From IMG/VR virus record IMGVR_UViG_3300013125_000006, positions 1-64,000 of that record: a DNA stretch of 64,000 bases. The stretch is one strand, 5' to 3'. How positions within the stretch are numbered: the first letter of the stretch is position 1; each line of letters begins with the position of its first letter. Made by a program: the position numbers and the translations under genes. Positions 10,143 to 56,586 of this stretch are shown one piece after another. The stretch is from a virus. The notes under the pieces are model-generated. The model made no database searches and had not been told where the DNA came from. It was given only the letters and a program-made list of their open reading frames with translations.

Positions 10143-13100
10143 ATGTCACTAATCAGAAAACTACAAGACGGTAATAAAATATTACCTGATTTAGATACAA
10201 TCTTAAATGAAGAGCTTGGAAAATTTGCATTAAAAAGCAAAGACGAAAGAAAAGTAAGGGATGCATTAGCAGAATTAAGAACTTACGATTCTGAAAACAA
10301 TGGAGCATTTAGGGCTGATCAGGTATCTAGAAGATACACAGTAACAGGTACTGGTGGTGAAAAATTTGAAGGAAGTCCAGACGATATTCACACAAATTGA
10401 TTTACTGGGAATCTAAAAATAAAAAATGATCAAGATGCAATGTCTGTAGCAGCTGCTATTTATAATAATGCATTAAAAAGGTCTGAACAAACAGTACCAA
10501 CTCAACAAAATATGACTAAATCTAAAGTTAGTCTAAGAAATTTAAGAGATTATATAGTAGACGCATATGGAACTGAAGATATATTCCAAAAAGAATTCAA
10601 TGATAAAATAAAAAATAATGATGAGAGAAAGCGTAAAGTATTAGACTATACTAAACGATATTTAGAAGAATATGGTGGAAATGCTGAAAAGAATAAAGAT
10701 CTTGCAGAATATGAATACTCTGATGATGTAAAAAATATATTAGAAAATTTCCCTAATCTTAGTTGGGATCAATTAAATGAAAGAGTACATAAATTTAAAT
10801 GGAATTTAAATGATTTCTTAATGGGAGATAGTGAAATATCTTCTATAAATGAAGAACAGAAAAAAGCAAATGTTGAAAGAGAGAAAGCTAATGAACTAAA
10901 TACATGGACAAGTAGGGGAATTTCTGCAGAAATTGCTCAGAATTTATTTGGATTAGGATATAATAAATTATTAGATCAAGTATCTTTCCCTGATTTTACA
11001 GAGGAACAAAATAAAGCAATTAATGAATATATAAAAAAGAAAAATGGTCTAATAACTACTAATGCTCAAGATAAATATTTTGTATTTGATAGATATGGAA
11101 ATCCAATAAATGCCACAGGGGAAGACTTTAATCAATTTCATCCTTTATATGGAAAAGCATGAAATAATACATTAGAGAATGGAATGACTTTTCTACAGGG
11201 TAAATATCAAGCAATTGATTATGGTGATGTTGGTAAAGGACTAAATATTCCATCATATCCAGGTTGGATAACTACAGGATGGACTAAAAATTCACCAGAA
11301 GAAGAAAGGGCAGTAGATTTTTTAGGGAATCCAGATTATACTAAATATATAACTTTAAAAAGACCAGGTTTTTCTACTATAAAATTAAGTAAAACTCCTC
11401 AGGGAAACTATATGGATTCTGAGGGTAAATTATATCCAGATATAAAAATAACTGGATTTAAGGAAATGGAATCTAATGGAAAAGTAATAAATCCCTTTGA
11501 TTTTAATGTTAAATATTGGGAAGTACCATCAGAATTTAAATCTATAATTCCAGATAAAAAATCTCTATATAATCCTGCAGAACATGAAGACGAAATAATA
11601 AATTTAATAACAAATAATGAATCTGCAGAGATAAAAGAATGGCAAAAAGATTCAATAAAAGAATTTATTGCAGCTTTAAAACATCAAGCAGCAACTGGAT
11701 CAGAAAAAGAAAAAGTTGAGGCTCTTAGAAAACTTTCTGGATTAAATGAATTAATAAAGAAATATACAGATATAAAATTTAAAAAAGGTGGAATTTTAAA
11801 AGCTCAATCTGGAGTAAAATTAGAAAATTTTGCAAAACCATTAGATGCACCAACTAAAATCAATGTAAATAAAGAAGTTCCAAAGGTAAAAGATATTTCA
11901 TCATTAGTAAGAGGGGCCTCAACTGAAACATTAGCAGAATTAGGATTAAATGCTGGAGCATTACTTCCTGGATTTATTGGGGCAGGAAGTGCTCTTGCAG
12001 CAACTGTATTAGAAACAATAAATGATGCAAATGATGATGATGGATGGACTTGAAAAGATACAGGAAATCTGGCATTAAATTTAGGATTAGTAGGAGCATC
12101 ATTTGTAGGTTTAGGAGGATTGAGAGGAGTAGTAAAAGGTGCTAAAATAGGTACTGAAGTTGCAAAAGGACTTAAGGAAGCTTCAACTATTGCAGACTTA
12201 ACAAAAATATCAAAATATGCAAAAGGAGAAAAGGAAATATTAGGAGCTTTAGAGGTAGTTGGAAAATTTTCAAAAGAAAATTATGGTATTTCTAGCTTAA
12301 AAGAAATAAAGACTTTGGCCTCTTCAAAAGAACAAAAAGAAGTAATAGAAGCACTTGGAACCTTAGAGGGATTTACCAAAGCTGTTGCAGGAGCGCCAAA
12401 ATTAGCCCCAACTATTGCAGGAGAAAAGCTACTAAAAGGAGCAGATTGAACATCTAGAAATCTGGCTTATGGAATGGCAGCAATGAATATTCCAAATGCA
12501 GTTCAGGCATCTAATAAAATTATACATGGAGATTTTAAAGATTTAAGTGTTGATGATATTAGTTCTTTAACAGCTGTAGCATTTGGAGCAAAAGTAGCTA
12601 CTCATAGAAGTAAGATAAAAATTGGTAGAAAATATGGAGTTGTTCAAGAAAATGGAAAAGTAAAGTCTATTTCAGCAGAAATAAATGGAAAAACAATAGA
12701 AATAACAGATCCGGAAATTATAAAAGAATTTAAATCTTTTAATATCAGACCTTCATCAAAAAAAGAATCATCAAATAAAATTAAATCTGCATTTGTTAAT
12801 GAGTATAACAAAACAGCAGGTGAAGATGGAAAACTTAAAGTTGAGGATTTAAAAGAATTTTCTCCAGAATTAAATAAAGAAATATTAGGAACAGATGTAT
12901 TAAGAGACAAGTTTGACCTGAGTAAAAATCTAATGTTGCAAGAAAAAGGTATGAAATGGGCTAAAAAATATAAATTAGCTGGAGAAAAACCTAAAGCAAC
13001 TATAGCAAAAGAAAATGAAGCGCCTACTCAAAAAACTGTTGAAAATGTAGATACTGAACAAATTCTAAAACCAGGAGAAGCACCACAAAATCCTATTTCT

Positions 13101-14402
13101 ACTATAAATCTAGGACAGAAGGGTAAGTATTTAATTGCATCTAAAGAAAATGAAGTTGCAAAATGGGAAAAATCATATAAAGATCAAGTAGATAAATTAA
13201 TGAAAACCATAGAAAATACAAAACCAAAGTCAAATAAAGTAAAGGACTCTAAAGCAGCAAATAAAACTGTAGAAGAATTGTGGGGTAAAATATTAAAATT
13301 AGAACAGGAGAGAATTAATAGAATGGCCCAATTTAAAAAACTTAAATTTGGGGGAATTTTTAAATTCCAAGCAGGAAGTAGTTTTAATATACTAGGTGAA
13401 AAATCTATAAAGGATCTTATAAAAGAATTGCCAAAAGGATTAGATAGAACCGGTTTGGCAAATCTTACAATGTATGCTAATACTATAAATACAAATAGAT
13501 ATATTGGAGATCAACAAAGAAAAGCAACTGCAAATTCGATTTATAAAATACCATATTTAGAAAAAGTAAATATGAGAATTGGTAGTGAGCCTTTAATAGA
13601 GGCTAATTCCCAAGCAAATAAAATGAGGTCTCAAGGAGCTAGAATTGCTACTACAACTTCTGATATTGATAAGGGAAATGCTGTTAGATTAGAAGCTGAA
13701 AATAAAGCTTCTGATATAATGACTAAAGGAAATTTAATAAACACTGATAGAATTGATAAATTAAGAAATTATCAAATTGATAACAACCAGAAAGTAGATC
13801 AAACAAATTTATCTATAGCAGGTAAAAACAGAGGAATTGTTGCAGAAGCTATGAAGAATATCAATTTAATAAACTCTAATCAAGCCCTAGCACAAAATGC
13901 AGCATTTACTAATTTAGTGAGAGGAATTGATAAAAATGCATCTGTAAGAGATTATAAAACTGCATTGGAGGAATATACTAACTTATCAAATAGTGATGTA
14001 TTAAAAGCAAAGATTAAAGAGTATGAAAATTTAAGTGGTCAAAAAGGTTTAGAAGAAGTTCAAGCTAAGTATGATAATTTGAAAAATACTTTAGGTAAAG
14101 ACTTTACTACTCCTTTAGAAGAATCTACTCCATATCTAGAAAGAAAGAAAAAGCTTGAAGACTTACAAAAAGAACTTGAAATACTTTACGAGCCTATAAA
14201 AAAAGCTCAGATAAATTTACAAGGAAAACAAGCTTTATTATATATGAAGAAAGGCGGAGGCCTTACAAAAGAAGATAAAATTGAATTAGAAAATATAAAG
14301 TTCAATCACAAAAAAGCTTTGGATGAACTAAGATCTTTCTATAAAACAATTTTACAAAATAATGAGTTAATGCAAAAAGCTTTAATAAAAGTATTTAAGT
14401 AA
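10143..14402 (+). CDS. Large virion (cargo-type) protein, 1419 aa, TGA read as Trp
   Basis: The frame runs from ATG 10143 through TGA at 10398, 11160, 12051 and 12447 to TAA at 14400-14402. The opening MSLIRKLQDGN is similar to the K-x-Q-x-G openings of nearby virion genes. The middle holds Ala/Gly-rich, possibly membrane-interacting segments (for example AGALLPGFIGAGSALAAT near residue 615) and Gly-Gly motifs KKGGILKAQSG and FGGIFKFQAGS. The C-terminal 350 residues are strongly helical and probably coiled. No enzymatic motif is visible. In crAss-like phages a protein of this size and place is packaged in the capsid or tail, and I infer that here. The stop overlaps the next ATG by one base. 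Confidence 0.65.
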
Positions 14403-16309
14403 TGAAGAAAAAAATTAAAAGATTGGCAGATGGGGGTGGATTCGCAGCATTCACCCCTATTATTCATTCAGCCCCAACTCCACAAATTTCACAACCTGCA
14501 AAACAGACTGGCAGTACTGAGCCAGAATCAAATTCAATTATAGATGAAAAAATGTTGGAATACCTATATAAGAATAGGGGACTTGTAAATGATGTTAACA
14601 AGTTAGTATCTGATTTAATTAAATTAGAATCATCTTCTACTACACCATATTTAAATAAACAGAACAGGATTGCAGCACTACAAATAACAGCTAGAATAAA
14701 TGAAGTAAGTCAAAATAAAGAGAGTTGGAATGATGCAATAAAAATAGCTAAAGAAGCCGGAGGGTTAAGTGAGATAGCAGTTGATACATATGGAAGAATA
14801 TTCTCAAAAACTCCTGATAATCAAATAAAATCTTATTCTCTTGAAGAATATAAAACTAAAAAAGATAAAATAAGACCATTAAGCGTACAAGAATTAATGT
14901 ATGAAAGACAGTATAATCCAAATCTTACTGGTAAGAATGAAGTATTTACTGTAGCTGAAAATGCAATAGGAATAAACAATATTACAGATCATATAAAAAA
15001 TATAGTAACATCATTAGCAATAGAATCTGATGAATCTGAAAAATTCTATGAAAAAGAGAAAGTAATTAATTACTTACAATCAAAAAATATTAAAAATCCA
15101 ACTAAACAGGAAATAGAAGGATTAGTTGTTTTAAATGAAATAGCAAATTCTCCTGGAGATTATGTATCTGTAAATAAAAAAATAACCTCACAAAGAGGAA
15201 ATATAGAAAAAGCATTGGGATATATTTGGAGTACTTTAGGAACTCCGGCACAACAAAAATTAAGAGCAGTATCTATAACAAATAATATAGATAATCCCTT
15301 ACAACTAATTTATGATATGCTTAATGTTCATACAGACCATTCAGAATCATTATCTATAACACCAAAGACATTACCAAAATCAAAAGAAGAATCTAAGAAT
15401 TCAGATAAATCTATAAGTTTATCTGTCCCAGAATTATTTCATGGAGATAGGTTGCATACACCAGGAATGTTTTATGAAATAAATAATCCATCAGCAAAAG
15501 TATCTTTAAAAGTAACTGCAACAGGAATAGGATCATTATTTAGTCTTACTAAAAATGGAGAAATCTTAGGTCCAGAAACTTTAAATAGAGTGCTAATATC
15601 TGATAATTATCAATCAATACTTAATCAAGAAAAAGTATATTTAGGAGATGAAAAAGTAGACCCAATGCTATTAAGAGAGTTAGCTTATACAGGACAACAA
15701 GTTGCAAAGGTATATATGCCAGTAAGAGCAGATGGATCTCCAGATTTAGGACAAATGGAAAAATTTAACACTATTTTCCAGGAATTTTCAAAAAATAAAA
15801 ATTCATGAACAAAAGAACAGGCTGAAAAATACTTTAAGCAAAATGGATTTTCTAATGTTATAATAAAACAAATCTCTAATCAAGATGGAACCGTAGATAA
15901 AGTAATTGCAGAATCTGGAAATGTAAGACCTTTCTTGGCAATACCTGTAATAACTAGTTCATCATCTGATTTATCAGATAATCCTTGAATGACTAAAATT
16001 ATTGGACCAGGACTAGATGCAGCAGAGCTATTATTAGAAGAAGCTTTTACAGTTTATGGAGGAACTCCTTCAAAACCAACAAAAAAACTACAAATACCAC
16101 ACTCAACTTTTGGAGGAAAAGATCCATATCAAGGTGTGGCATTTATAGCATATAGACCAGAAGCAAATGCTATATTAAGTGCAACACAAAGACACTTAAT
16201 TGGTACAGCCCCAACAGATGAAGACTTATATAGAAATTTAAACTTTAGTACAGCATCACAAAATCCGTCTGGAATAAATTCATCTTCTGATGTACTTAAG
16301 GATAATTAA
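14402..16309 (+). CDS. Virion protein of unknown function, 635 aa
   Basis: ATG 14402 shares a base with the preceding TAA. TGA at 15806 and 15986 are read as Trp and the gene ends in TAA at 16307. The N-terminus MKKKIKRLADGGGF carries another Gly-Gly motif. The protein is mainly helical in the first 300 residues. A beta-rich stretch around residues 340-460 contains VPELFHGDRLHTPGMFYEI and a segment with KVTATGIGSLFSLTKNGE. No catalytic signature was recognised. It sits between the cargo-type protein and the four giant genes and is presumably co-transcribed with them. Confidence 0.6.
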
Positions 16310-16324: not shown

Positions 16325-19300
16325 ATGGAAATATCAAAACCTAATGATATATTAATTGCTACGATAAATAGTCCAGGATCTACTCCGTATGATTTTTTAT
16401 CAAATAATATAAGAGGTGATAATACATCATTTTTTACAAAAGATGAGTATAAACAAACAAGTTATATACAAGATGCATTTAAGGATGATAAAGGAAAATT
16501 TGATGAAATAGCTTTTGATAAAGCTTATGATTTGGCAAAAAATAATTTTTACTTAATAACTAATGCAGAATATTTAAAATCTCTCAATGAAATAGAATAT
16601 AGTCCATTTGATGTTACTAGACCAAAAGAGGCTAAAACTATTAAAGTAGGAGCTTCTTTTGAGAAGGAATATAATCCTTTTGAAGAGAAAAAAGGATGGA
16701 CTGGAATAGGCTCAGTAGATTTGAGTAATTTATCAATGAGAGAATTGGCTCAAAAAGGAAAAATATATGATCCAACAACAAAGACATGGTCAGAAGAATC
16801 AATTAATGATTTATCATTAGTAGATAAATTATTTGGAGATACTTATGTATATGCACAATATGATGAAGATGGACAACATTTAGATCTATCTTCTGGGATG
16901 ATTGTATCTCATAAAAAAGGAGACTGGAAAATAAATGAAGAAGGAAATCTATTTATTGAAAAATTAGCCGGAAGAGAAATATATGGAAAACAGGTTGTAA
17001 ATCCGATGGATGTTTTAACTACTGATGGATCTATAGTTAATAATTTTGATTTCCTAGATTCAGATGGAAGAGAAAAGTCAATTGGAGGAACAATATTAAA
17101 AACAGCTGTTGAAATAGCACCATTACTAATACCAGAAATTGGTATATTTAGAGGAGCTATGTCGATACCAGCTTTATACGGAGGATTAAGAGCTTCTATA
17201 GGACTAGCAACTGCTATGCCAACCTTATATAAATCAATGGAAGGATTGTTAGTAGGAGATAGTAATACTACTGTTACTCAAGGTGCAACACAGCTAGAGG
17301 GATGACTATCTAAGTATGCTCAATCTAGTGTGTCAGATGAAGGCTCAGAATCTTTATTTGGAGTTGAGCAAATGACACAAATGGTTTCTAGTATATTTTC
17401 ACAAATATATGAACAAAGAGCTGCTGCAAGTTTATCTAAACTAATATACAGAGGAGATAAATTAGTAGAGGGAGAAACAAAAAGACTTGCTAATGAAATA
17501 AATCAAAAATTAGTATCAGAAGCTTTAGAAGGTAAGATAAAATTTGAGGATATAGGAGCATTGTCTCAAGCTGCAATGGAAAAAATCCCAACATTACAAT
17601 CAGTAATAAAAAAACAAAGTGATTTATCAAAGGCTCTTTCTCTTGGTTATATGGCAATTGTATCAACCAGTGATATTTATGGTCAAGCAATAGAAGGTGG
17701 ATATGATAGAAGGACAGCTGGTTTTGCAGCTTTAGCAGCAGCAGCTGGACAATATGGTATAATGATGAATAACAGAATGGGAACATGGTTTTTAGATAAA
17801 ACTACAGGATATTCAGAAGAAACCAACAAAGCCCTTATGAGAAAATCAGTATTGCCATGATTAAAAGACATAGAAACAGGATTTAAATCTGTAAAAGTAA
17901 ATGTAACTGAAGGTAAAAAAGAACTTGGAAATGTATTTGGAAAAATAAAAAATTCAATGCAAGGCATATTTATGAATCCAGCAGTAGTTGGAGAAGCAAT
18001 GTGGAAAAATGCTTTAGTAGAAGGTGTCGAAGAGGTTACAGAACAAGTTGTACTAGATGCAACTAAAGGAATAGTAGATACTATGTCTTATCTTGGATTA
18101 ACAAAGAAACAAGGTTCGTTAGGTGGATGGAATAATATATTTAGTAAACAAGGCTTTGAAAATTACTTAGCTAACTTTGTTGGAGGTATTGTAGGTGGTG
18201 GATTATTTGAATTCCATAGATCGGTATTAGCTCCCTGGATTGATCCGTCTATTATGAATAAAGAAACACAAAAGTCTTTATATGAACTTATTGCTGCTGG
18301 ACATAAGGATGATATTATAGATATTATTAATTCAAAGAAATCAAGTTTTGGAAATAATTATGTTACTCCAGTATCTGAAAATGGAGAATTTAAAGAAGCT
18401 GGAAAAGATAATATATCTCAAGCCGATTTAATAGCTGAAAAAGCAATTGAAATGGTTAATATAATTGATGGAATATTAAATAGCCATGATTTGATAAAAG
18501 ACGATTCTGAAATAATAAATAAAGCAATTAGAGATAAAATAATTATAGATCAGTTAAATGCTACAAAGCCTGAAAATTCTACAATAGGATTAGAAGGATT
18601 AGTTCTAGAGGACTATAAGTCAAATATGGTAAAAATAGTAGAACTAGAATCACAAATGAAAAATTTAACTGATTCAGTAGAGGATACTAAAATAAAGTCA
18701 TTACTTAAATCAGAATTAAAGAATTATGTAGATAATGTAAATTTAATATTAGAAGGTAAAAAAGGAGTAGAATATTTAACTAAATCTTTATTATATTTGG
18801 TAAAAGACGTACATTCTCCATTTTTAAAAATAAGTAAGCCAGATTTTGTAAAAGAAACATATAATGTAAATTACTTCGATCTGCCAACATCAGGAATAGG
18901 ACTTACAAAAGAAAGAATGGATAAAGAATGAGATGAATATATTACATCAAAAGACCTTAAAAAGGATTTAAATACAATTTATAAAGTATATACTGGTTTA
19001 GAGCAGATTTTAAATGATCCGATAGCAAAATATTCTGAAACAGGTTATGATGTAGAAAGGTTAAAAACCATACAAAATATCTTTGATTTAAAAAAGACAA
19101 TAGACTTGTTTAATACAGAATCTTCTCCTGAACAAAAGACTTTAGCATTACAGAGGTTTATAAAAATAAATGAAGAATTACAAAATAGCAAGATAGTAGC
19201 TCCTTGGACTGTATATCATAATGATATGTATAATCAGTTAAATAATTTAGGACTTATAAAGAAAGCTACTATTAATGTTGATGAAAATGGAGAAGAAACA

Positions 19301-22300
19301 TATGAGTTAAGTAATTTTGATGATTCTGAATTAAATACAAATACTGAAGAGGGAATAACTGTAAAACAGAAATTACAATCTATTATAGAATCTTATTTTA
19401 AATTATTTAATATAAATCCTTTAAATGCTGAATCAGTAATAGAAAAATTAAATACTCAAATAACTTTAGAAAATAAAGAAGTACTAAATCAGATTTCAAA
19501 TATACAGAAAAAAGGAATATTATCAGAAGAAGATTTGAATAAAATAGAGGAATTAAAGTCTAAATTATATAACTTTAAAATAGGTAATATAAATGAAACT
19601 CCAAGAATTAAAGAATTATTAGAGATATCCAATTTAAAAATTACTAACAAATTAGGAGAGTTAGGAATAACCATGGATGAATATAATAAGTATTTATTCA
19701 ATAAGAGCAATGAGAATGTATTTTCTAAAACTTTTGAAGAATTATTATCCAAGTTTGAAACAAAAGATTGAACCGATTTAAACAAAGATCAATTACTTGA
19801 ATTTTTAACAGAATTAAATACTCTTGGAATAATTGACTTTTCTTTAACAGAGATGTCTTCAATTTCTTCAAATGCAAGAGAAATTATAGAAAATGAAGTG
19901 TCAAAACTTAATAACTCTGAATTATCTGAATCTGAACTTTTTGACATAAAAATTTTATTAGAACCATTTATAAATACAATTAAAAATATTATAGATTCTA
20001 ATAATTCAATGCTTAATAATGACTCCTCCAAATCTTTTGAGGAATTTATTAATGATGAAGTAAATTCAGTTAATGAACAGAAAGAAAAATTAAAGCCAGA
20101 AATATTTAAATTACATAATTATGCATTAGATTTATTAATAAAAGAATTGGAATCAGGCAATGCGGATAAAGAAGTTTTTCTGGAGACAGAAAAACTAATT
20201 AATGATGAAAAAATAGATTTAATAGCAAGAATATTTCCCAATATAAAAGATTTTGAATATTCAAAATTAGAGGAAACTATAGATTCTATAGTTCTTTTAC
20301 AAAGTAACTTACTAAATGAATTTGAAGACTTTGAAAATGACATAGGAACATATTCAGAGCTTAGTGAAATAAGAAAGTTAATTGAAGGAGAGGAAGAGGC
20401 TTTTAAGAATGATTCAAATTATAAAGGAATTTTTCCAAATATAGAAACATTAAACTTCATTAAAAATAATTATGATTTGGGATTATCTTTAGCATCACTA
20501 AATGTTGCCCTTAAAGATTCTATTAAATCACTTAGTGATAATAAAATTGTTATTGATAAAATAAATAAATTTAATGATTTAGTCTCCAAAGGAATATCTT
20601 TGAAATCAAATCCTTTATATGATTTTATTAGGAATTTTGTATTAACTTTGTCATCTGGTTCGGAAAGCAAAACTACTAAAATTTTTGATATACTTGAAAG
20701 AGAGGAAACTATGTTAAAATCTTTATCAAGTGTAACTAATTACTTGGCAGAGGATATTAAAACTCAGGATTTTTTACAGGCTATTGATTATTTAAAAATG
20801 ATTAAGGCAGTAATAAATGCCATGTCTACAACTAAAGTAAGTTTTGGTGAACCTTATGGATTTATTCAGAGTAGAATAAATTATGCAAATAAATATGATA
20901 AAGAGAATGATGTTTTAAAATTAAAAACAATTTCTTCTGATTTAGCATCATTAATGGCGCAAGATGTAGATATACTAATTACTAAACTTGGATTCTTAAA
21001 AGAATTATCAATGTTTAATAAGGGAAAAATGACACTTGAACAAGAAGAAATAAGATCAAGAGTCGAAAATCTCCTAGTTGATAATTGGAGAATATCAATG
21101 TCTAAAATAAATCCATCATTTTTACCACTTGAAAAAATAAAAGAAATATTAGCATCTACTGAAAGTAATTCAAAAAAATTAATGCAAATAGAAAATGTAG
21201 TATTTTTGCATAATGTAAACAACAAAGAAAAAGCTTTAGAGGAGTTTATAAAAAATCTTGATTTTGCAGATTCTGATGAATTTTCTCAGATGGATAGAAA
21301 TATATCTAAATTAGAACAGTGAGATTTGGCTGTTTATTATGCCACTACTCTTGCAATGAAATCTGAGGATTTTAGTATAAGATCTTTTATTACAGTAAAT
21401 AGTGAATTTAATAAAGCACCATTCTTTACACAAGAATTTGCAGCAAAAGTAGTAAAAGCAAGTACTATTAATCCCGAATTATTTGCTAAAATTTTAGAAT
21501 TAAAGAAAAATTCAGCAAAAACTACAACAGATTTTATTACAATAGTACTTGGAGGAGCTGGAACAGGAAAAACATCTGCAATATTTGGAATGGATATTGA
21601 CAATTTTAGACAAACAAATAATAATACAAATATATGAATTTCAGCTCCGGCTGATTTACAAAAAAATAATTTAGTAAAAACATTAGAAAATTCTGTTGGA
21701 AAAAATAAGCTTACAATAGAAGATTTTAATAAAGCTAAACTATTTGAAAAATTAGGCATTTCAGAAATAGCAGAAAAAATAATATCTGAAATTTCTCAAA
21801 TAGAAGATGATAAGGTAGTTAAGGAATATGTTAAACTTGAAAATGGTATTATTACTTTAACTGATAAAGTATTAAGTAATGAATGAATTACTGATATAGA
21901 GGAAAATTTAAAAAATCTACCTAATTTATTATTAATTGACGAAGTAACCCATTTCTCATCTTTTGAACTATATTTATTAAATGCTATATCTAAACATTCT
22001 TATTATAATAAGAATTTAGGTTTTATGAAAATAATTGCAGCTGGAGATCCGACTCAATTAGGATATCTTGCTAATGTTAATAAGAATTTCTATAGTTATA
22101 ATGTAGACGCAATAAATGCTATTTTTACCCCAAGATTATGGTCAAGTGTCAGATCTTCAAATGGACAAAAGAGACTAAATAATGATAGATATATAAGAAT
22201 AGTAAGAGAAATTGAAAAAATATATAAAAATAGTAAGGGATATTATGATAAAGCTGCAGAAGATTCTTTAAGATATTTAAGGAACAATGTCGAATTAAAT

Positions 22301-25300
22301 ACTCTTTCATATTTTGAGGCTCAAAATGATTTTGCTGGAGATAAGATAGTAACAGCGCTTAATAAAGAAATAGTAACTACAATAAAGAGTCAGATGGATA
22401 AAAATCCTGAATTTACTTTAGGAGTACTTACTGAAGATGGAAAGCTTCCAGAAGATTGGAATACTTTATTAAGTGAAGTTGGGTTAATAACACCAGAAGA
22501 CACATCAAGAATAAAAATATTTACCCCAAGTAATATACAGGGAAGTGAAGTAGATTATTTTATTTTTGATGCAAATCTAATTAAAAAATATGACAAAATA
22601 AGAGACCAATTAAAAGCATTTTATACCTTTATGTCGAGATCTAAAGTTGGGTCTTTTATAATTGACAGTAGTAATATACTAAGTAATTTAAATATATTCA
22701 ATGGAAAGAAAGATTTATTTCCTTCTAACTTTGAATTAATGACACCTGAGGTAATAAAAAATGCAAAAGAGAAAAGAATAGAAGATCTTAAAAAACTTCT
22801 TGGAGAAAATCTACAAGTATCAGATTATGATAATTTTAAGTGAGATATTGGAGAATTATCTGATCAAGAATTTACAGACTCAAGATTTGTAACTAGTGAT
22901 ATTCCAGAGCCATTGGATTTAAATGAAAATTCAGACGTATCTAAAGGAGAAAATTTAACACCAGAAGATTTAAAAAATGGCTTTAAAATATTAATGCATA
23001 GTTTTTACAATAATCCTAATGCAATAGTAGATACTAAGACTAAGACTATCAAAACTAATTCTAATGCTATAAATTCAGACTTAAATTTTATTTCTGATAT
23101 AGGCAGTGATAAATTTAATGGGGTGATTTCTAGTTGGATAAAATTAAAGAATTATGTATTAAATAACCTATCACAAAAACAAATTAGAAGTAATGATTTT
23201 GAAGAATTCTTTAAGGAGGCTTTTAAAGGAGATGTAGATTCATCTGAATTAATTTCAATAGAACCTATTTTAACTGCAACTAAGTATAATAAAAATATAA
23301 ATACACCATTTGCTAAACATGGATTTAAAGAAGACAAAACCTTAGGAAATGGTAAAACATTTATAACCTTATCTGCAAAATTAATATTAGGTCAAAAAGT
23401 ACATTATATTACATTAGCTGCTTTTGGTACAGAGGAACAAATACTTAAGAAAGCTACAGAATATAATGTTGACAATGTTAAAATTGAGGAAAAATTTAGA
23501 GAAATAGAAAAACTTCTTGAAGCTTCTCAAAATAATTTCTTAGAATTACCAATAGATGATATTGAAAATATAAAAATAATAACTAGTACAAGATTAGAAA
23601 AAGTATTTACTAACAGTAACAAAAGAGTTACTTATGACTTAAGTTCTCTAGAAGAAAATTTCCCAGGAATGAATATAAGTGAAATTAGATTTTTCCCAAG
23701 AAGTTTAGAAGAATTTAAAAAACTACTCAAAAAATATACTTTTGGGCCTGAGAGATTTTCAAATCAAGGATTATCAGACAGTGAGATAGAAAAGAAGATA
23801 AAAGTTCTTTTTGAGGGAAATAGAGACAAAAATGGGAAATTAATAAAAGATGCTGATGGTAAAACAAATTCAGGATTAAAAAATAAACCTTATATAGTAG
23901 TTTCAACTAAGGAAGATTTAGATGGAAACGAAAATGTAAACACAACACAAGCAGTTTTAATTCCAATAGGTTCAAATCAAAGAAATTTAGATACCTTAAC
24001 AAAAGAGGTAGAAGATTTACTAGAAGAGAGAAGATTGGATATGGAAAATGGGTATACTAATAACAAAAAAATAAGTCCAGAAATAAATGCAAAAACTGAA
24101 ATTTTATTAAATAGATCAGATATATTAAGTGTATTGATAAAATGGGGAAAAACAAAGTATGATAATGGAACATTATTAGATTTGTTAACTAAAGAAATAG
24201 AATTTTCATTGAGTGATACAGTAACAGGAAATAAAACTTCAGTATTTGATATCTTTTCTAGATTTAAAAATAGCAATGCAGAAACTTCTGTAGCCTCTAG
24301 GGAAAATATGAAAAAAGTTATAGACTTTGTAAAAGAAGCTCTGGCTAAAAATGAAAATGCAACAGTTGCAGAGATAAAAGAATCTGTAGTATCTAAAATG
24401 GATAAAATGACTGGATGGCATTGAACATTTTTCAATATTTTTGGATATGAAAAGATCATATCAGATTTAGAGGATGAGAAATTTTTAGAGCTAATGTTAA
24501 AAGGAGAAATTAATGACAAAGTTTTAGAAGTCTTTAATAATTCTAAAGGCCATGAAGAAATGAAAACTATCCTGAGTACTTTGGTACAAAGTTTAACTGG
24601 ATTTAAATTCTATTATTCAATCCCAATTAAGCCAGCAAAAATAGAAGGAGGACCATTTATTGTAAATCCTGCCATTGATGGCTCTAATGGATTTAAGAAA
24701 GAATTATTTGCTGATAAATTTTTCATAAATGTAGCCCCAGAAGGACCAAGATTGTTATTAAATATAAATACATTTTTAACGGCAGTTCCAATAGACCAAT
24801 CACAAGTTATTTCTACTCCGCCTGCTCCGCCTGCTTCAAAAACTACTAAAAAAGCGACTAAAAATAAAGTAGTTCCAGAAGTATTGGATCAAACTTTAGT
24901 CTCTGATGTTAAGTTAAATTCTTCTCTAAATGAAGATTTAAAATTAGCAAATTCTTTAGTAAAAGAATATGAGAAAATAGTAGGAGTAGTTAATCCTATG
25001 GATACTATGACTAGAATAGCAAATTTCTTAAATAAAAATTTCAAATGAGGAATTTCAGAAATAGTTAGTGATGGTGAAAATTTCAAATTTACTACTCCAA
25101 ATGGAGACTTTGAAATTAAGGCAGAAATTGTTGGAAATAAAATTAATAATTTATTAGATCAATTTGTAACTGCATATTTCGTAGGAAAGCATATTAATCC
25201 ATCTGAGAATTTTGAAGACTTTGTATATAAAATAGGAAGTCAAATAATATCAGAAGATATTAGAGAAAATCTAAGTTTGGTATTAAAATCAATTAGTAAA

Positions 25301-25537: not shown

Positions 25538-25546
25538 ATATTATAA

Positions 25547-28500
25547 ATGAGTAAATGTGATGTAAAATATATAGGAAAAATAATTAGTCAAATAGACGAT
25601 TTCTTTCTTATAGAAGAAGACAAAAGCCTAGAAAATTTAGAATCATATGTCAAAGAAGGGATTCCTGGGTTACACCAGGACTTCTCTTTGGAGACCTATA
25701 TTAAAAATTCAAAAGACTTTAGTGATATGTTTTCTGGATTAGTTGAATTATATGATCTATCTTTAGACACCTATATAAAAGGAATAGATTCAAAATTTAT
25801 AAACACAAAAAGTAATGTATCAAGAAATTTTTCAACAGATAGAATAGTTGATTTATTCCATACCTTACCATTAGCAAAAGCAAGATTTGAAAACTTTTCA
25901 ATTAAAAAGATTTTAACTGCCTTTTTAATAGGACAAAAGTCATCAAATAAATTCGTATCTTCTAATTCAGAAATTTCTAAAAATTTTACTGCATTAAAGA
26001 ATGATTTGTTTTTAAAAATACAAGATTTTTTAAGTAGTAAGAATATTATTAAAAAATCTGAAATACAGGATTTATACAATAGTAATGGAGATATAATAGA
26101 CTATAATCATTATAAAAAAATAATGAATCTTATAGATGATTATTTCTTCTCGGATGAATCAAAGTTAATTAAGACATATTCAAATAAAAAAGGTATTCCA
26201 AACTTATCCATGGATACAGTAGAAAATTCAGATTTATTTGATTCCTACAATGCTAGTATATTATTATCTAATTTTGACTCTGTATTACAGGAATATTTTA
26301 GTGGAATAGTGGATATAAATTATAACTTATTTAATAATCTAAGAAGTAATTTAGAATCAGGAGACAAATATTCTAAGAAAATAGAAGGAATAAAAACAGA
26401 GTATTGGAGAAAAGATACTCATGAGACTGAAAGCAGTGAAGAGGGAGAAAGTAAACTTATAAAGCTACTTGTTTCCACAATTCCAATATATAATAAGAAA
26501 GGTATTGATAGCGGAGTAACTATGGAAATGAAAGATCTATATCTTATAGCTGCAATGATTTCTGATTTTGAAATTGTAAACGGAAATAGATTAAAAAATA
26601 AAGAAGGAAGCAATTTTATATATTTCAATGAATCTCCTAAAAAAGCATTGTTACAGTATTTGGATAATGTGGATAAAGCTTTTAATGGTTTAGATGGGGA
26701 TACTTTATATAAAGAACATTTTCAATATAATTATGAGTTTATACTATCACTAAAAAAGTTTATAGAATCAGAAGAATTAAATATATTATCTAAAGAAGAT
26801 AATTCTAAGGAATCTATTATAGAAATGATAGCCCAAGTTATAAATAATAATTTTGGAGCATCCTATCTCACATATAATTCTAATGGTAAATATACTATTA
26901 GAGAAATGTATAAACAAAATTTTAATACAATTCATTTGCAAGATTCTGTATTTGAGAAAATCTTAAGATCTAAAAATGAAAAATTATATGATGTAGAGAA
27001 GAATAAAGATGAAATAGATGAACTTTTTAAAAATATAAATGATGGAACAAATTTACTGCTAATTCCAAAAGAAGCTAAGATTGCAATAAATAGTTATATT
27101 GGAAAAAGGACAGGAATATATTTATCTTATCTAGGATTTGACGATTTAATAGTAGATATTAGAAAACATCAAGAGAACCTTACAGTAACAGGATTCAAAA
27201 ATATGCTTACAAATTTTAGTAATGCTGTCATTGAAGATAGGGCAAGAATAAAAAAAGCAGTAGAAAATAAACAAATAACTGATACTAGTAAAGATATAAA
27301 TTCTGGGGATTACATACAATCTCTAAATAATAATTCTTTATTTAAAGGACATATAAATGCATTTCTAATAAATTATCCAGTAAAAGCAGTTATGAATATT
27401 AATTTATTAAGTGGTGAGAAATTACCAACTTTTAAACTGGCTAATCTTACTCAAAAAGATACAGAAATATTTGAATTACAGAGAGATTTTGAAAAATCTG
27501 GAACTTCGTTATTTAAGAGTCTTCTAATAAAAGATACTCCAGCTATATTAGGAACAGGAACTAAATTAGAGCTGATAAATGGAGAAGACAATAAATCTGC
27601 ATCAAAATTTAATATTCAAGAAAATTTTACATCAGACTTTCAATTGGATTTCTTAAAAAATATAGAGAGTAATGGAAACTTTTCAATAATGCTAGGGAAT
27701 TACTCTGATAAAAATACTATATTGACAAAAATAATCAATGGAAGTTTTAAAATTCAAGGTAATTCAAAGACTATTTTACAATATTCTCAAAAAGAATTAT
27801 TAAATATTGTAAAATTACAAGGAGGAAGTTTTTATAAAAATACGTTAGTAAATGTATTAGCTGATTTAAATTTCTTATTAGGAAGAACTGATAAAAGAGT
27901 AGTAGAAACCAATGTTAAGAAAATAGAATCTGATATAAAAGAATTGAATATAATATTAGAAAATACTGATGTAAGAACATTATCAAAAAAAGCATCAGAT
28001 AATGGTATTAAAATATTAGAAGAACTACATTTTTCAAAATATGAAGGAAAATTTAAATTAAATCAGTTACTTGTTGACAACTATAGAATATTTAATGATG
28101 ATGATTTATTTAATGATTTTGTAAAATTACAAGAAAATGAAGTAATAAGGAAATTTAAAAAATATAATAAATCATCAGAAATTAAATTTCTTAAAGATAT
28201 TGACTTAAAAAAAATATCTGAGAAATTAGGAATAGAAGAAAAAGAATTTCCAAAGAAGGAAACAAATGGAAAGGAAAATATAGATTATACACAAATAGAA
28301 TCTTCTGGAGAACTTAATCCATTACTTAAAAAATGGTTATGAACAAATGCTTTATTTAGAAATGAATATTTATTTGTAACAGGAAAAGGTGAATATATGC
28401 ATCCTCATAAAGTCAAGAGTTTATCTTTTAGAGGAAATTCTAATGGATTATTATCAAAAAATGATAAAGAAAAAACCGCATATTGGAAAAATTTCCAAGA

Positions 28501-31500
28501 AGAAATGAGTGGAAGATTATCTTCTATGGCTAAACGTAATGTAATTTATACAGCAACAATAGAATCACCAGTAAGAAATAGCAAGTTAGGAGTTCCTGAT
28601 GATATAAATATGGCTGTAATAGATGATCACAGAGATGAATTATTTAATATAACTGGAAATACAAAAAATCAGGAAGTACATGATGGTTCTTCTTATATAA
28701 ATTATATATACAGTTTAATGCTCGATAATTCTTTTCCAGGAAAAGGATATAATGGAACAAAAAAACAATTTGCAACATTTGTTACTGAGTCTGGAGTAAC
28801 CATAAAGAAAGACGCAGAAAGTGTAATAACAAATAGAAAAATACTTGATTCAAGAAATTCAAAGATATCTTTTTTAGGAAAGCAAAAACAAATGCTTGGA
28901 ATTGATGTTCAATTACCAGCTTCTTTTAAATTTAACGAATCTTTTAAAAATGAATTCTTCTTTAATAAATTAGGAGTTATATATAGAATAGAAACTATAG
29001 ATATTACTAAAAATAACTATGCAATGGTTGTATCAAGGAAAAATGGAAATAAATGGACATTAGAACAGGAGCCAATTTCTGGAAAATTTAATAATTTATA
29101 TCAATTATGGGAATTATTTGGAGCACAATATTCAACTGATATAGACAATAATTTTAATGAGGGTTCAAATGAACTATTGTATAGAATAGTAACTACTCAG
29201 AATGGGGAAGGAAAATATCCATTAAAAAATGCAATGATTCATGTATTATCAAATATCTCAGCTGTAAAAGCAGGAGCTGCAAATGTTAATGATAGAAAAC
29301 TATGAACATCAGATGAACCATTAGCCTATACATCATTTAAAAATAGATTTATGGGACCTCAGCTTGATGCTTCTCATGATGCTAATGATTCAAGAATTAA
29401 AGAAATTACTCAGGTAATATCTTCCTTAGCTCAAAATTCTGATACAGCACATTTAGCACAAGAAGCATATGAGGATATAGCAACTGTAATAAAGAATGCA
29501 GCTAAACCATATGTAAAATATATGAAATTTGGCAAGGATATAAATAAATCTGATTTATATAAATATTTATCAGAGAAATTTGTAAAAACAATAGAAAATT
29601 CTAAAGGAGATAATATAGCAAAAATACTTGTTCAATCTTTTTCTCAAGATACTATAATACCTTTTAGTAACCAAAATTTCTTTATTCCTTTTGTAAGAGA
29701 TGTAATAACAAGAATGAATAATGAGTTTATTTCAAGGTACTATTCTGGAATAGGGGCTGTTTTAATTCCATCACATGGTATTATACAAGTATATGATATT
29801 CCACAGGCAGATGGTACAGTAAAAATAATGACTCAAGCAGATATAACTAAGGAAGCTTTAAGTGCAGGTATATTTGAAGGAGTAGCTTCAAATGATGAAC
29901 TTATAGAAGCCCACATAAGAAAAATAGCTCCACCACAAGACATAACTTGGGGCGAAATAATGCTTGGAGATACTGTAGAAGTACCAAAAGAACCAAGAGC
30001 TGAAGCCAGAGAATTATTAAAAAATAATTTGGGTTTATTACAATCATTAAAAGATCAATATGGAGACAATGAATTATATATAAATCAATTAGTTTCTAGA
30101 TATTTAGATTGAAATTTTGGAAATAATAAAATACCGAAAGAAATAGATTTTAATAATTTTAACATTTTCTTAGCAGAAGATGCTTTATCAAATGATACGA
30201 GTATTGAAATGCAGGAAGTAACCTTGAGTAATCCTGATATATATTATTATTATAAAGAATTACATAGTGGAAATGAACCTGTAAGAAAATTAACTAGACC
30301 AAGAGACTTAAAACCAAGTGAAATAACTTTTACATGAAATGGAAGAAAAAATCTATTTGATTTGGATTCTATAAGGCTTAGATATAAGTTCGAGAAGATG
30401 TATAAAAATAAAATGCTTAATGAATCTGACAAAGAGTTTATTCATTTAAGTAATTTTTATACTAAAGTTTCAAATGGCAGAAATCTTATTGAGGACTTTA
30501 AAACTGATAGCACTCAAGCAAGTAATATATTAATTAAGTACCTAAATCTATGAACAAAAAGAAATTTAAACTTATTAGAACTTAATAGGGTAATGAAATC
30601 TGTAAATACTTCCACAATGGATGAAATTTTCGGGGAAGATAATTTAGTAAAATTATTTAGGGAAGTTAAAGATAGTTACATGAATATAACAGAAGAAATA
30701 TCTGATTATGATTTTAAAGCTGCAGAATTAATACTAGGTAATTTATATAATTCTAAATTCAACACTGATAGTAATAGTTCAATATATGAAATAAAATCTA
30801 AAGGAAGTGAATACTTTAAAGAATCTTTAGAAAAATTATTTGAAGAGGATTCATTTAAAGCAGATATGAAGTTAATAGTAGAAGGAGTAGATCATCCAAT
30901 ATATATAAAATATACTGATAAACTTCCAGGAAATGATTATAAATTAAATATAAAACTAGAAAGACCTCTTGATAATGGGGATATTACTAGAAAATTTGTT
31001 AGACTTAATGAAAAGGGAGAAAAAATATATGTAATTCCAGACCATAATTATGTAAGAGCTATAGAGCAAGACGGAAGAGAAGTTATTTATGTAAAAGCTG
31101 CCTCATCAGTTAAATCTAAAGAAGGTAAAATTCTAAATATTGAAGAACCCTTTAAAGAAAATTTAGCTAATCTTATAAATTCTTTTGAAGGATCTATAAG
31201 AACTATAGTTCCATTAATGGGTTCTGACAGTGATATAGTTGATAAACTTAAATTAAATAAAGTTACTTTAAATGAATTTTCAAAATTTTCTAATTATGTT
31301 CCAATAGATAAAAATAATTTAGATACTGAATGATTTGAATTACATAAAAAACATATAATAGATAAATTGAGTAAAAAAATGTATGCTTCTTGAGAAAAAT
31401 CTCATGAATTTGTAGTTGCACGTATCCCTGCTCAATCTATGCAATCATTTATGCAAATGCAAAATATTGCTTATATGCAAGGAAATTCAAATGATGCATT

Positions 31501-31540
31501 TGTATCAGTTTGGCAAATATGATTACAAGGCAGTGACTTT
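25547..31540 (+). CDS. Putative virion RNA polymerase, exon 1 (residues 1-1998)
   Basis: The frame opens at ATG 25547 and reads through eight TGA codons (28340, 29303, 30110, 30335, 30551, 31331, 31391, 31520). It reaches the sequence R-I-P-A-Q-S-M followed by QIWLQGSDF, where a group I intron interrupts it after GACTTT. Joined to exon 2 the motif becomes GSDFDIDKAYMLG, with Asp 1997, 1999 and 2001 forming a D-x-D-x-D triad. An Asp triad of this kind binds the catalytic magnesium in single-chain RNA polymerases, including the crAss-like virion enzyme (phi14:2 gp66 family). The W of QIWLQ is a TGA codon. The long N-terminal helical part is probably structural or an injection domain. The enzyme would transcribe early genes after injection. 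Confidence 0.75.
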
Positions 31541-32583
31541 AGATAATATTGGAGTCACTATAATAAATCTCGTTAACTGCGGGGAACTCCTGAGAGTTTT
31601 TACTACAAACTTAGACTAGTAATAGATCTAAGGGCTATAATTAACTATTATAGATATTGTAAAAAGGTAAAAAATTGGACAATCCGCATCCAAGCGTCCT
31701 AGATAAAATTTATAAAAATATAGACTTTTAAATGGATAAAATTTTATAAATTTGTATTTAGGATGAAGGTTCATCGACTATCCCGGAGGGGAGTAGAAAC
31801 TTTCATTTAGTATTAATTATTAAATGAATTCATTATGTTTAAAAGAAAAATTACTAAAAAGTTAAATGTAGAACAAAAGCAATTACTTATTGCTTTATTA
31901 TTAGGAGATGGAACTATTTCATCTAATTATGTTTTTAAACTTTCTCATGGAGAGGATCAATTAGAATATTTAAATTGGAAGATACTACTTCTAGATAGTT
32001 TAAATATAAAAAATAATGGTTTAAAAACATATATATCAAATTCAGGATATAATACTGGTAAAAAAGTTTTATATTCGCAAATGTCTTTAAATGCTACTAT
32101 AAAAGCATTAAGAAGATCTGTTTATTTACCCAAAAAGACTTTATCAAGAAATCTTTTAAATTGGTTAAATACTCAGGGACTTGCAATTTGGTATATGGAT
32201 GATGGACATATTAATGTTAATACTTCTAAGCAAAGGACTACTATCCAACATACAATAAAGTTTGCAACTTGTGTAAAGCTAGAAATAGCAACTATAATTA
32301 TTCAATATTTTTTAGAAAAATGGGATATAAAATTTAGACTTTTAAATGAAGGGAAAAATACATATTCTATTGCTTCTAGTACGGAAGCTGATGCTGAAAA
32401 ATTTTGTAAAATTGTAAAACCTTACATACAACAAGTTCCTAGTTTATTATATAAAATAAGAAAAGATTTAACTAAAGAAGAATTTATTCAAAAACAAAAT
32501 GAAGGTTTCGAAATGCGAGACATTATATATTAAATATAATGAAGATATAGTCAGTCTTTGTATGAAAGTATAAAGGTTAAACG
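31541..32583 (+). ncRNA. Group I intron in RNA polymerase gene (with LAGLIDADG ORF)
   Basis: The polymerase frame is lost after GACTTT (31540) and resumes at GATATTGAT (32584), restoring DFDIDKAY. The exon ends in U and the intron ends in G, as group I introns require. Core elements are visible: the AACTGCGGGGAAC segment near 31574, AATCCGCATCCAAG (31681-31694), a P7-like GGTTCATCGACTATCCC (around 31768) and its partner GATATAGTC (near 32543). The 1043-base intron carries a homing endonuclease gene at 31835-32533. A 21-base stretch (31674-31694) is identical to one in the helicase-gene intron on the other strand. Confidence 0.85.
31835..32533 (+). CDS. LAGLIDADG homing endonuclease (intron-encoded), 232 aa
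   Basis: The protein has two LAGLIDADG-like helices: LLIALLLGDGTIS (about residues 18-30) and LAIWYMDDGHIN (about residues 115-126), the pattern of a single-chain enzyme whose two active sites each contribute an acidic residue. It lies wholly within the group I intron and ends in TAA before the P7 3' strand. It would cleave the intron-less polymerase allele near the DFDID codons and so spread the intron. It has no in-frame TGA and uses TGG for its three visible tryptophans, unlike the host gene around it. Confidence 0.85.
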   Translation: MFKRKITKKLNVEQKQLLIALLLGDGTISSNYVFKLSHGEDQLEYLNWKILLLDSLNIKNNGLKTYISNSGYNTGKKVLYSQMSLNATIKALRRSVYLPKKTLSRNLLNWLNTQGLAIWYMDDGHINVNTSKQRTTIQHTIKFATCVKLEIATIIIQYFLEKWDIKFRLLNEGKNTYSIASSTEADAEKFCKIVKPYIQQVPSLLYKIRKDLTKEEFIQKQNEGFEMRDIIY

Positions 32584-35538
32584 GATATTGATAAAGCTTA
32601 TATGCTTGGATCTGGATTTAGTTCTAATGGACAATTTGAAGCTATATCTAAGATAAGTAATTATTCTAGTATAGATCAATTAAATGTGCTGGAAAAATTT
32701 CCAATACCAACCAATAAGAAAATAGAATTATCTACAGATGGTCTAGATTTAACAAACGAAACCAAAGAATTTTTTACTTATAGTAAAGAAGAGTCATTAA
32801 CAGATGTCATAGATAATATTGAAGAAACAATTGCAATGAATGAATTATCTGTAAAGCAATTAAATTTACTAAATATTATAATAAGAAAAGTTAATGATTA
32901 TGTAAAAAATACTGGAAATAGAAATGTTTTTACAACTGATAATAATAAGGATGCAAAAATATTAATAAATTTAATAAATAAGCATAATCTAGATAATGGG
33001 TATGTAAAAAATAAACACTCTGTAAAAAATTCCATTGTATCAAAAATAAAACAAATCATATCTTCTCCAAGTAATCAAATTTTAGCAAATATTCCAGTAG
33101 ATGTTGAAGTTTGGCAAAATGCTGCTAATGCAGCAATAGCCTCAAAAAACATAGAAAAAGAATTTTTGTCTTCATATGATATGTTTAGTTATTATAAACA
33201 ACAAAGAGACGCATCAGTAGGTAAGGATGATGTTGGTATAGCTGCTAATGGACTTAAAGTACTGTTTGCATTAACTAGTTATTATAACAATTACTTCAAT
33301 AATTTTTCTTCAAATAATTCAGAGGATATAAGAAGAAGTAATAAAACATTTATAAAAGAATTTAAATTCTCAAATGGAAAAACTTACAAAATTGGTGCTA
33401 TTAGTGATGTAGGTATGGATGATTCTCAAAAAGCTGCAATAGAAAAAGCTATTGGTAATTTTGATGCATTTAGAAATGATGCAGCAATTTCTTTATCTAG
33501 TTTTACATCTGCAGCAACTGATAATGCTAAAGAATTACTTATGGCAAAAATTAATGCAACAGTAGAATTAGCTTCAATGCATATCTATTTACTTACATTA
33601 GGATTTACTCCTGGTCAAGTTTCTGAAATAATGACATCTGAAATAATAGATGATGTAATCAGTTCATTAGAAAGTAACTCTTTACTAGGTGAAAATAGTA
33701 GTATTATACCAGTTATATTTAAGAACTTAGAAGGGACATATAAAAACAATGAATCAAAATCAAATGACTTAGCAGTACTAAAAGATATATATGATGGAGC
33801 ACAGGAAATTAAATTCTTAGCAAAAATCTTAGGAGCCAATCAAAAGAGATCTGCAAATGTAGAAAAAATAAATGACTTTTTAACATCTTTAGAAACTACT
33901 CTATATGCTAGAGAAAATAATGTGTTTGGCAATGATTTAAGACTTCTTAATGAGTGAAATAAATATAAAGATTCTCCAGATAAAGGAAAAGCTAAGGAAG
34001 TAAGAGAAGTATTTAAGGGATTGGTTGATAAAATTATGCAACATAATAAAGCATTAAATTCAAAACTGGATAGAAAATATGTAGAAGATTTACTTGAAAA
34101 AGCTAGCAATGTATCAGTAAGTTATGTAGATGAACAGGGGAAAAGACATTCTAAGTATGTAAGTATTATAGGAGGAAATTTTGATTTTAGATATTTTGTA
34201 GATGGATCAAAAGAGAATGATGAATACAGAAAATTAACAAAACAATATTATAATTTAATAAAAAATACTTATAATATATTTGATGTAATTGATGAAGTCC
34301 CACATTTTAAAGAAATGATAAATGGAATAATGCTTTCTCATAATATCTTAATGAATACTTCTATTAAATATGCAACTGCATTTACAGTAGTAAAAGATGT
34401 ATTAAGGGAAAATTCTCATAGAGTAGTATTTAGTGGTAAGGAGGATAATCCTAACCCAAGTATAAAAAATCAAATGGGAAATCCAGGATTATATCCACGT
34501 ATAAGTGATCAAATGATAACTAAATCATTATCTGGTATAGATGTTATGTTAAAATCAAAGTGGTTAAAAAGTGAAGCTACTTCTAAATTAACTTTTAATG
34601 TAACTAGTTTAATAAAACAATTAAATGATTATAATAGAGAAGCTAAAAAAGATGTAATAAAAAATTATTTAGTATATACGTCTGACGAAGCTTGGAGTAA
34701 TGATAATGTATCAAACTTTTCAAAGAAAGTAAATGAAGAAGATGCAGAAGATACAATAATAACATTAGACACTAATTATGGCATTGCAAATTTCAAAAGA
34801 TTAATGGAAGATATATTACTCCCATTATTACAAAAAAATTCTAATATATTATTAGACTCCTTAAAAATACAAGAAGTAAAAAATATATTTGGATTAAGAA
34901 CTTCTGGAATAGTGTCTACATTTTCATTAGGAGAATTAAACAATGCAGTAGTTAGAGATAAAGCCCAAAAATTAATAAAAGCATTTAATGATTTAGACAA
35001 CAACTCAAGTACTAAAAATTTAGTAAAAAATTCAGCAAATGAATTATTAAGATGAAAGGATTTATTCTATGTGTATAATTTATTATTAAATAATGAAAAA
35101 TATGGAAGTTTAAGATTAACCCCACTATTTGAGGATTATATAAAAGAAAAAGATTCTTTAGGATATGATTATGTGATGTTTTCTTCAAAGATAGATTCAG
35201 GAGAAATAAATTTATTTAGCATAGAGGATATTATGAACGAATATCCTGAATACAAGACAGCTTTAGAATCTGGGGATACTGAAACAGTAGAAATCATAAA
35301 AAGAAAAGCATTTAAACAACTTTCAAATGATATATTATTCTACGCTTTACAAAGTGGAGGAAAATTAACTATAAACAATGGGGCAAGGACTAATGAGAAA
35401 TTATCTGTTACAAATGGAGATTTCTTAGTAGTAACATCAATTACAGAAAGTCAAGATGCTAAGAAAACACAATCTGAATTTAGTGAGGTACTAAGATTAC
35501 TAAAAAGCAGAGGATTTATAATTAAATTTGAATGTTAA
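32584..35538 (+). CDS. Putative virion RNA polymerase, exon 2 (residues 1999-2982)
   Basis: After the intron the frame resumes with DIDKAYMLGSGFSSNG and continues through TGA at 33955 and 35053 to TAA at 35536-35538. This exon supplies the second and third Asp of the DFDID motif, so neither exon alone can be active and splicing is essential. The spliced product is about 2982 residues. The remainder is helical and Lys/Asn/Glu-rich, with a conserved-looking patch RISDQMITKSLSGIDVMLKS around residue 2640. The next gene starts three bases after the stop. Confidence 0.72.
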
Positions 35539-46083: not shown

Positions 46084-46112
46084 ATTAATAAATATTAACT
46101 GAAAGATTATTA

Positions 46113-46759: not shown

Positions 46760-46761
46760 AA

Positions 46762-48165: not shown

Positions 48166-48176
48166 TATAATAAAAA

Positions 48177-48636: not shown

Positions 48637-48643
48637 AATTTGT

Positions 48644-49045: not shown

Positions 49046-49063
49046 AAAAGAATCATTTAAATT

Positions 49064-51675: not shown

Positions 51676-51685
51676 TTTATTAATT

Positions 51686-52554: not shown

Positions 52555-52558
52555 TTCT

Positions 52559-56286: not shown

Positions 56287-56586
56287 ATTTTATAAATTTT
56301 AATTAATACTATACAAATGTACTAAAAATTATTCATAAAACATAACAAATACCCAACCTTTTCCAAATAGCTTATTAAAAGCTAAATGTACTCCTTTGCA
56401 GGATAGTCTCTGATCCTTTTTCCTAATTTAGGAAACTTGGATGCGGATTGTCCAATCTTATTTAATTTTTACTATACTCTAAATAATTACTTTAGACCCT
56501 ATATTATGTTACCATATATAGTTAGTATAAATAAGCTCTTAGGATATTCCCGCAGTTAAATTGGTTTTACAAGAGCCAAGATTTCA
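55540..56586 (-). ncRNA. Group I intron in helicase gene (with GIY-YIG endonuclease)
   Basis: Exon 1 ends CATAAGAGT (56587) and exon 2 starts CAAGGTTCT (55539), restoring H-K-S-Q-G-S-S. The exon ends in U and the intron ends in G. Core elements on the - strand are AACTGCGGGAATATCC, AATCCGCATCCAAG (within 56436-56456) and GGATCAGAGACTATCC. The 5' 300 bases hold the core, and the rest is the GIY-YIG gene, whose TAG stop is the last three bases of the intron. The 21 bases at 56436-56456 are identical to a stretch of the RNA polymerase intron. Confidence 0.85.

Follow-up and report, generated by a model that had tools for sequence, protein, structure and literature searches.

We report that P0001, a giant protein encoded in a 64,000-nucleotide stretch of viral DNA (hereafter 'the window', i.e. 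positions 1-64000 of the 77,264-base IMG/VR virus record IMGVR_UViG_3300013125_000006), contains what is, judged by its sequence and its modelled fold, a genuine and intact superfamily 1 (SF1) helicase domain. The virus is, as its genes indicate, a phage related to Crassvirales, and P0001 is encoded among its late genes, with a crAss-type RNA polymerase as the next gene. Every sufficiently complete relative that we could identify encodes the helicase together with the N-terminal module of P0001, either fused in a single gene or split over two neighbouring ones.

An SF1 helicase domain within a recoded giant protein

The reading frame of P0001 comprises 3070 codons for amino acids, ten of which are TGA; it is open when TGA is read as Trp (translation table 4) and broken under translation table 11, and the same holds for the plus strand at large, where table 4 yields a series of very long late genes that table 11 fragments. 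A sequence-only reading of the window had named four SF1 motifs within this frame, and all of them were located in the predicted order, with the Q motif and motifs IV and V present as well (Table 1). When the domain search suggested in that reading was run on the joined table-4 protein, Pfam AAA_19 was matched with E=7e-6, which passes the curated cut-off, and the outcome that would have spoken against a helicase, namely no match at all, did not occur. The expectation that the standard code cuts the domain in three and causes it to be missed was likewise borne out: the TGA codons at residues 1771 and 1854 lie inside the helicase core, and the best helicase matches of the table-11 pieces (AAA_19, E=0.035; UvrD_C_2, E=0.0078) both remain under the Pfam cut-offs.

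A profile built from ten relatives matched UPF1, NAM7, RecD and SMUBP-2 when compared with the PDB (best E=1.8e-9), and AAA_30 and AAA_19, two Pfam models of the RecD type, match all ten members of that profile, with motif VI being of the UvrD_C_2 type. A single-sequence search of the PDB with P0001 gave no match, nor did NCBIfam and PADLOC for the helicase domain. The AlphaFold2 model of the domain, based on an alignment of eight relatives (predicted local distance difference test score, pLDDT, 71.7; predicted template modelling score, pTM, 0.76), exhibits two RecA-like domains, and a structural aligner relates it to SF1 helicases with Z-scores of up to 19.5 over ∼300 residues, including T4 Dda (Z 19.4; 295 residues, 3.9 Å), UvrD (18.5), Pif1 (17.9), HelD (15.7) and RecD2 (15.2). 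Among 25 relatives that are 25% identical on average, all 25 lineages agree at the key positions of motifs Q, I, II, III, IV and VI, which include the glycines and the lysine of Walker A, DE in motif II, GD and Q in motif III, and an arginine in each of motifs IV and VI; the glutamine of motif V (24/25) and the proline of motif Ia (22/25) are less strictly kept. Such invariance of catalytic residues is the signature of an enzyme that has been kept active, and activity is thus predicted. Chance occurrence of the motifs is ruled out by the Pfam match, the further SF1 motifs, the fold and the conservation in 25 of 25 relatives.

The matches to UvrD_C_2 and AAA_30 favour subgroup SF1B, so that a RecD/Dda-like enzyme is, on the basis of sequence, most likely, and a 5'-3' polarity is presumed. 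T4 Dda, Pif1 and RecD2 share with the P0001 helicase the fold, the motif set, the QGxE of motif V and a UvrD_C_2-type motif VI, but are separate phage-replication or cellular enzymes and exhibit 15-17% identity in structural alignment. The closest structural matches come from BFVD, that is, A0A8S5RTY8, a 'RecD-like protein' of Siphoviridae sp. gcode 4 (E 4.5e-27, 20% identity), followed by A0A8S5TKT5, a 'Helicase' of Podoviridae sp. ctz6O13 (E 7.8e-19, 20% identity). Judged from their models, both probably represent the P0001-type protein in other metagenomic phages; the papers searched yielded no study of their function or genome context.

IMG/VR was scanned three times, the queries being the complete protein, its N-terminal module and its helicase, and 30 contigs were found that represent ∼22 distinct viruses once near-identical loci are merged by eye, while tblastn identified two phage records from human faeces, MT835470 and MT835492, both of them unannotated. 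The codes of these relatives vary (TGA=Trp, TAG=Gln or standard), yet the module-helicase architecture is constant. Moreover, helicase and N-terminal distances are strongly correlated (Mantel r 0.79; 0/2000 permutations), which shows that module and helicase have been co-inherited. Neither a helicase of the P0001 family outside this context nor a module without helicase was found with conserved peptide seeds, a search that distant exceptions could escape. In MT835492 (L019) and in IMGVR 3300001528_000174 (L070), both using TAG for glutamine, module and helicase are encoded by two adjacent genes.

The N-terminal module itself is predicted to be largely helical and is partly hydrophobic, and its AlphaFold model (pLDDT 49, pTM 0.26) was too poor for a fold search. 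For P0001 as a whole, PHROGs offered no meaningful family and Pfam neither a polyvalent-type domain nor a methylase, and the large C-terminal part constitutes a region without assigned function. The assignment of TGA to Trp rests mainly on the open frames, because conservation of Trp is uneven across the TGA sites of P0001, being clear at some (residues 1771, 869 and 2173) and giving way to aromatic or variable residues at others; Trp conservation was accordingly dropped as proof of the code. In-frame TGA accounts for 57 of 14,009 codons in the plus-strand genes (109-43552) versus 2 of 4,774 in the replication-type genes of the minus strand (45256-63362), and this heavy use in the late plus-strand operon fits a P0001 that is synthesised late and serves in the infection that follows. 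The 77-kb record was found to contain no tRNA genes at all.

Gene neighbourhood and the question of a virion protein

The gene order of the window (muzzle, small genes, a large gene, a medium gene, the giant P0001, RNA polymerase) runs parallel to that of crAss001 (gp44, gp45, gp46, gp47, then gp49/gp50) and of phi14:2 (gp082 to gp076), two phages for which products of the matching genes were detected in virions by mass spectrometry. It is then relevant that crAss001 gp47, which is syntenic with P0001, was identified as a virion protein by mass spectrometry (PMC10172136), and that the syntenic protein of phi14:2 is likewise in the virion by mass spectrometry (KC821624 annotation). Both crAss001 gp47 and phi14:2 gp078 resemble P0001 in being giant, late, placed after two cargo-type genes and near the virion RNA polymerase; however, they contain neither Walker A nor SF1 motifs, and homology to P0001 is undetectable. 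The comparison with crAss giant proteins that the sequence-only reading had called for upheld the syntenic position, but revealed neither gp47 homology nor a helicase in crAss001, phi14:2 or DAC17. P0001 as a homologue of gp47 or gp078 was set aside, since single-sequence and profile comparisons were not significant; a short EG..E...Q segment followed by GGxxG, which P0001 and the gp47 family have in common, is at most suggestive.

At the two ends of this gene order, the muzzle homologue aligns in two colinear segments (hhalign, E=1.7e-12 and 2.5e-6), and the profile of the polymerase type aligns locally with that of the Crassvirales polymerases across DxDxD (hhalign, probability 98.5, E=1.5e-15). 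The polymerase gene, which had been expected just downstream of P0001, is split by an intron: the unspliced product would stop just past GSDF, and the joined exons give the catalytic DFDIDK. Matches to the group I core within this intron are weak, but ordered. In L009, the break appears to fall at the same polymerase position. For the genes in between, no significant profile match was obtained that would identify P0003 and P0004 as homologues of crAss C1 and C2, or P0005 as a homologue of gp49. The TerL of crAss001 was matched in seven of the 11 relatives' records tested. PMC7886860 describes the Zeta group as marked by recoding of TGA or TAG, by introns and by polymerase genes that are disrupted, and it is from the recoding, the introns and the disrupted RNA polymerase gene that we infer a Zeta-like placement of the phage.

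Some further features of the window were noted. A 1134-residue protein (35542-38946) contains a zincin-like HEFLH and a 1534-residue protein (38948-43552) a segment resembling PD-(D/E)XK around residues 250-300, both recognized by eye; such parts are known from crAss giant proteins and are located here in separate genes. On the minus strand (59970-62731), a ribonucleotide reductase gene carries a LAGLIDADG intein, and a group I intron, recognized with confidence (RF00028, 80.9 bits), follows directly.

Table 1. Coordinates of P0001, its helicase motifs and neighbouring features in the window.
Feature	Position	Strand	Remark
CrAss muzzle/stabilisation protein homologue (crAss001 gp44)	3156..7436	+	fixes synteny
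Large late protein in cargo protein C1 position	10143..14402	+	homology to C1 not detected
Late protein in cargo protein C2 position	14402..16309	+	homology to C2 not detected
Giant cargo-type protein P0001	16325..25537	+	3070 residues, table 4, ten TGA=W
N-terminal module of P0001, residues 1-700	16325..18424	+	EGVEEVTEQ and GGIVGGG segments; conserved
SF1 helicase domain, residues ~1676-2129, both RecA-like halves	21350..22711	+	Pfam, profiles, model
Q-motif glutamine Q1703	21431..21433	+	conserved 25/25
Motif I (Walker A) GGAGTGKT, residues 1743-1750	21551..21574	+	
TGA codon W1771	21635..21637	+	within helicase core; W in most relatives
TGA codon W1854	21884..21886	+	within helicase core, variable loop
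Motif II (Walker B) LLIDEVTH, residues 1869-1876	21929..21952	+	
Motif III IIAAGDPTQLGY, residues 1903-1914	22031..22066	+	
Motif IV arginine R1943	22151..22153	+	conserved 25/25
Motif V QGSE	22538..22549	+	SF1B-like QGxE
Motif VI TFMSRSK, residues 2101-2107	22625..22645	+	arginine finger R2105
RNA polymerase exon 1	25547..31540	+	ends ...WQIWLQGSDF
Group I intron with LAGLIDADG endonuclease open reading frame (31835-32533)	31541..32583	+	between F and D codons of DFDID
RNA polymerase exon 2	32584..35538	+	begins DIDKAYMLG...
Stand-alone Dda/RecD-like SF1 helicase, replication block	56584..57825	-	no TGA codons

Candidate roles of the P0001 helicase

Two phages of the Suoliviridae, cr50_1 (MT774375, L023, 9231-23555) and cr118_1 (MT774379, L034, 1705-16545), encode single chains of ∼4,800-4,950 residues that hold a zincin-type HEAFH, the polymerase motif GSDFDIDK and a C-terminal Dda-like SF1 helicase (AAA_30, E 2e-21 for cr50_1), and that their depositors labelled 'DNA helicase' (VOG0377). 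As with P0001, an SF1 helicase of the RecD/Dda-like type is thus part of a crAss giant transcription protein, but here a canonical helicase forms the C-terminal part of the very chain that holds the polymerase and does not reside in the upstream protein. The proposition that the cr50_1 helicase represents the same insertion as that of P0001 was rejected, since the A1 profile misses the cr50_1 helicase and the location differs, and the two are provisionally treated as separate. Taken together, the fusion in cr50_1 and cr118_1 and the adjacency observed for P0001 suggest that an SF1 helicase is coupled to the crAss polymerase in two arrangements.

The reading that we favour, and to which we give a little less than an even chance, is that P0001 is a late cargo protein which, once injected, acts as a translocase of the SF1B-like type, using ATP to open or clear DNA for the virion polymerase; the polymerase fusion in cr50_1 and cr118_1 is the principal argument for it. 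P0001 would be made late and enter the particle along with the two-barrel virion RNA polymerase encoded next to it, and both would be ejected together into the host; the translocase might then move on the phage DNA and melt it, strip off bound proteins or recycle complexes that have stalled, and the polymerase could thereby transcribe early genes from the opened or cleared DNA. Packaging, injection and partnership with the polymerase are all presumed in this scheme. Template opening is indeed a hurdle that a virion polymerase has to face: the virion RNA polymerase (vRNAP) of N4 is reported to be active in vitro on denatured, but not on native N4 DNA, which hints at a requirement for supercoiling (PMC10925440). 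Cellular SF1 motors acting on RNA polymerase are represented by HelD (PMC7749160) and PcrA/UvrD. HelD shares the SF1 core with the P0001 helicase and acts on RNA polymerase, as is proposed for P0001, but is a bacterial protein that grips a multisubunit polymerase by arms of its own, with no homology being evident beyond SF1.

Several observations weigh against the proposal that P0001 is such an injected partner of the polymerase. Its status as a virion protein is presumed from gene order, and comparison of P0001 and its N-terminal module with gp47 family profiles yielded nothing significant. The fold does not separate SF1A from SF1B, with UvrD and Dda scoring much alike. Finally, no helicase was found in the giant proteins of crAss001, phi14:2, DAC17, cr106_1, cr1_1 and Carjivirus, and likewise of phi17:2, of which crAss001, phi14:2 and DAC17 are cultured and infect without a helicase domain in their giant proteins. 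The helicase is thus an accessory rather than a general need of crAss polymerases.

Known SF1B enzymes such as Dda, Pif1 and RecD2 track on single strands and not on intact duplex, whereas an incoming genome is double-stranded. This argues against a motor of ejection or internalisation, that is, an injected translocase that would sit at the inner membrane side and pull the genome in by ATP hydrolysis, a role which we regard as unlikely. P0001 would suit this role in being a giant protein of the cargo type whose N-terminal module is helical and partly hydrophobic, reminiscent of ejection proteins; a study of phage DEV proposes that the ejected vRNAP itself draws DNA in (PMC10925440), and the authors working on P23-45 suggest that translocation and transcription are coupled (PMC10770324). 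However, a helicase domain is missing from those sampled crAss phages whose tail genes are equivalent, and in cr50_1 and cr118_1 the helicase belongs to the polymerase chain. Because polymerase and a different SF1 helicase form one chain in these two phages, and also because cultured crAss phages infect without such a domain in their giant proteins, the data lean towards a helicase that serves the polymerase over one that pulls DNA; of the two roles put forward in the sequence-only reading, feeding the virion polymerase is therefore favoured, on account of the Suoliviridae fusion, over pulling DNA during ejection.

The existence of DarB, a giant injected protein of phage P1 that bears a helicase domain and is located in the virion head (PMC5512222), places giant, injected multi-domain helicase proteins in a known class, to which P0001 might belong if its injection is accepted. 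It would then be an anti-defence or DNA-protecting protein of the polyvalent type, which guards the entering DNA against host nucleases or restriction or processes DNA ends. In the crAss phage cr1_1 (MT774380, L025), a 2007-residue protein encoded directly downstream of the polymerase giant (21840-27863) contains an ART-PolyVal domain (E 5.8e-10), which lends this idea some weight. DarB combines, however, a superfamily 2 helicase of the SWI2/SNF2 type with a methylase and serves anti-restriction, whereas P0001 is of SF1 and without a methylase or polyvalent-type match in Pfam; furthermore, its conservation throughout the relatives is more easily reconciled with a core function than with one specific to defence. 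We thus consider a protective role improbable.

We judge it similarly improbable that the helicase is an unpackaged enzyme of replication or recombination which merely resides in a fusion gene, for example as part of a polyprotein that undergoes post-translational processing. Replication and repair are the usual tasks of RecD/Dda-like enzymes, module and helicase are separate genes in MT835492 and one IMG/VR contig, and the zincin-like HEFLH of a neighbouring protein makes processing conceivable. Yet a stand-alone Dda-like SF1 helicase is already encoded in the replication block of the window, and P0001 is part of the late, TGA-recoded operon, between the genes in cargo positions and the RNA polymerase gene.

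Implications for crAss-like phages

The notion that the helicase domain was previously unrecognised had to be rejected, since the BFVD homologues are labelled as such and the records of cr50_1 and cr118_1 say 'DNA helicase'. A discussion of helicases within crAss cargo or transcription proteins was not found in the papers searched, although Figure 3 of PMC7886860, on the domains of the transcription block, may already show such a helicase. What we consider of interest is instead that the helicase is universal in the P0001 lineage, and that a separate fusion with the polymerase exists. Recoding, moreover, hides functional domains: when annotated with the standard code, the motor of P0001 reaches none of the Pfam cut-offs.

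In crAss-like phages, the start of transcription by a virion RNA polymerase on double-stranded DNA that has just entered the cell calls for an explanation, and a conserved helicase in an adjacent, probably co-injected protein, along with the fusion in Suoliviridae, provides a concrete candidate for a partner of the polymerase. It is possible, though less likely than not, that some crAss phages package and inject their two-barrel RNA polymerase together with a dedicated helicase, and that this pairing has arisen at least twice, as an upstream protein in the Zeta-like group and as a C-terminal polymerase fusion in Suoliviridae; ATP-driven opening of promoters or clearing of the incoming template would then take the place of host supercoiling.

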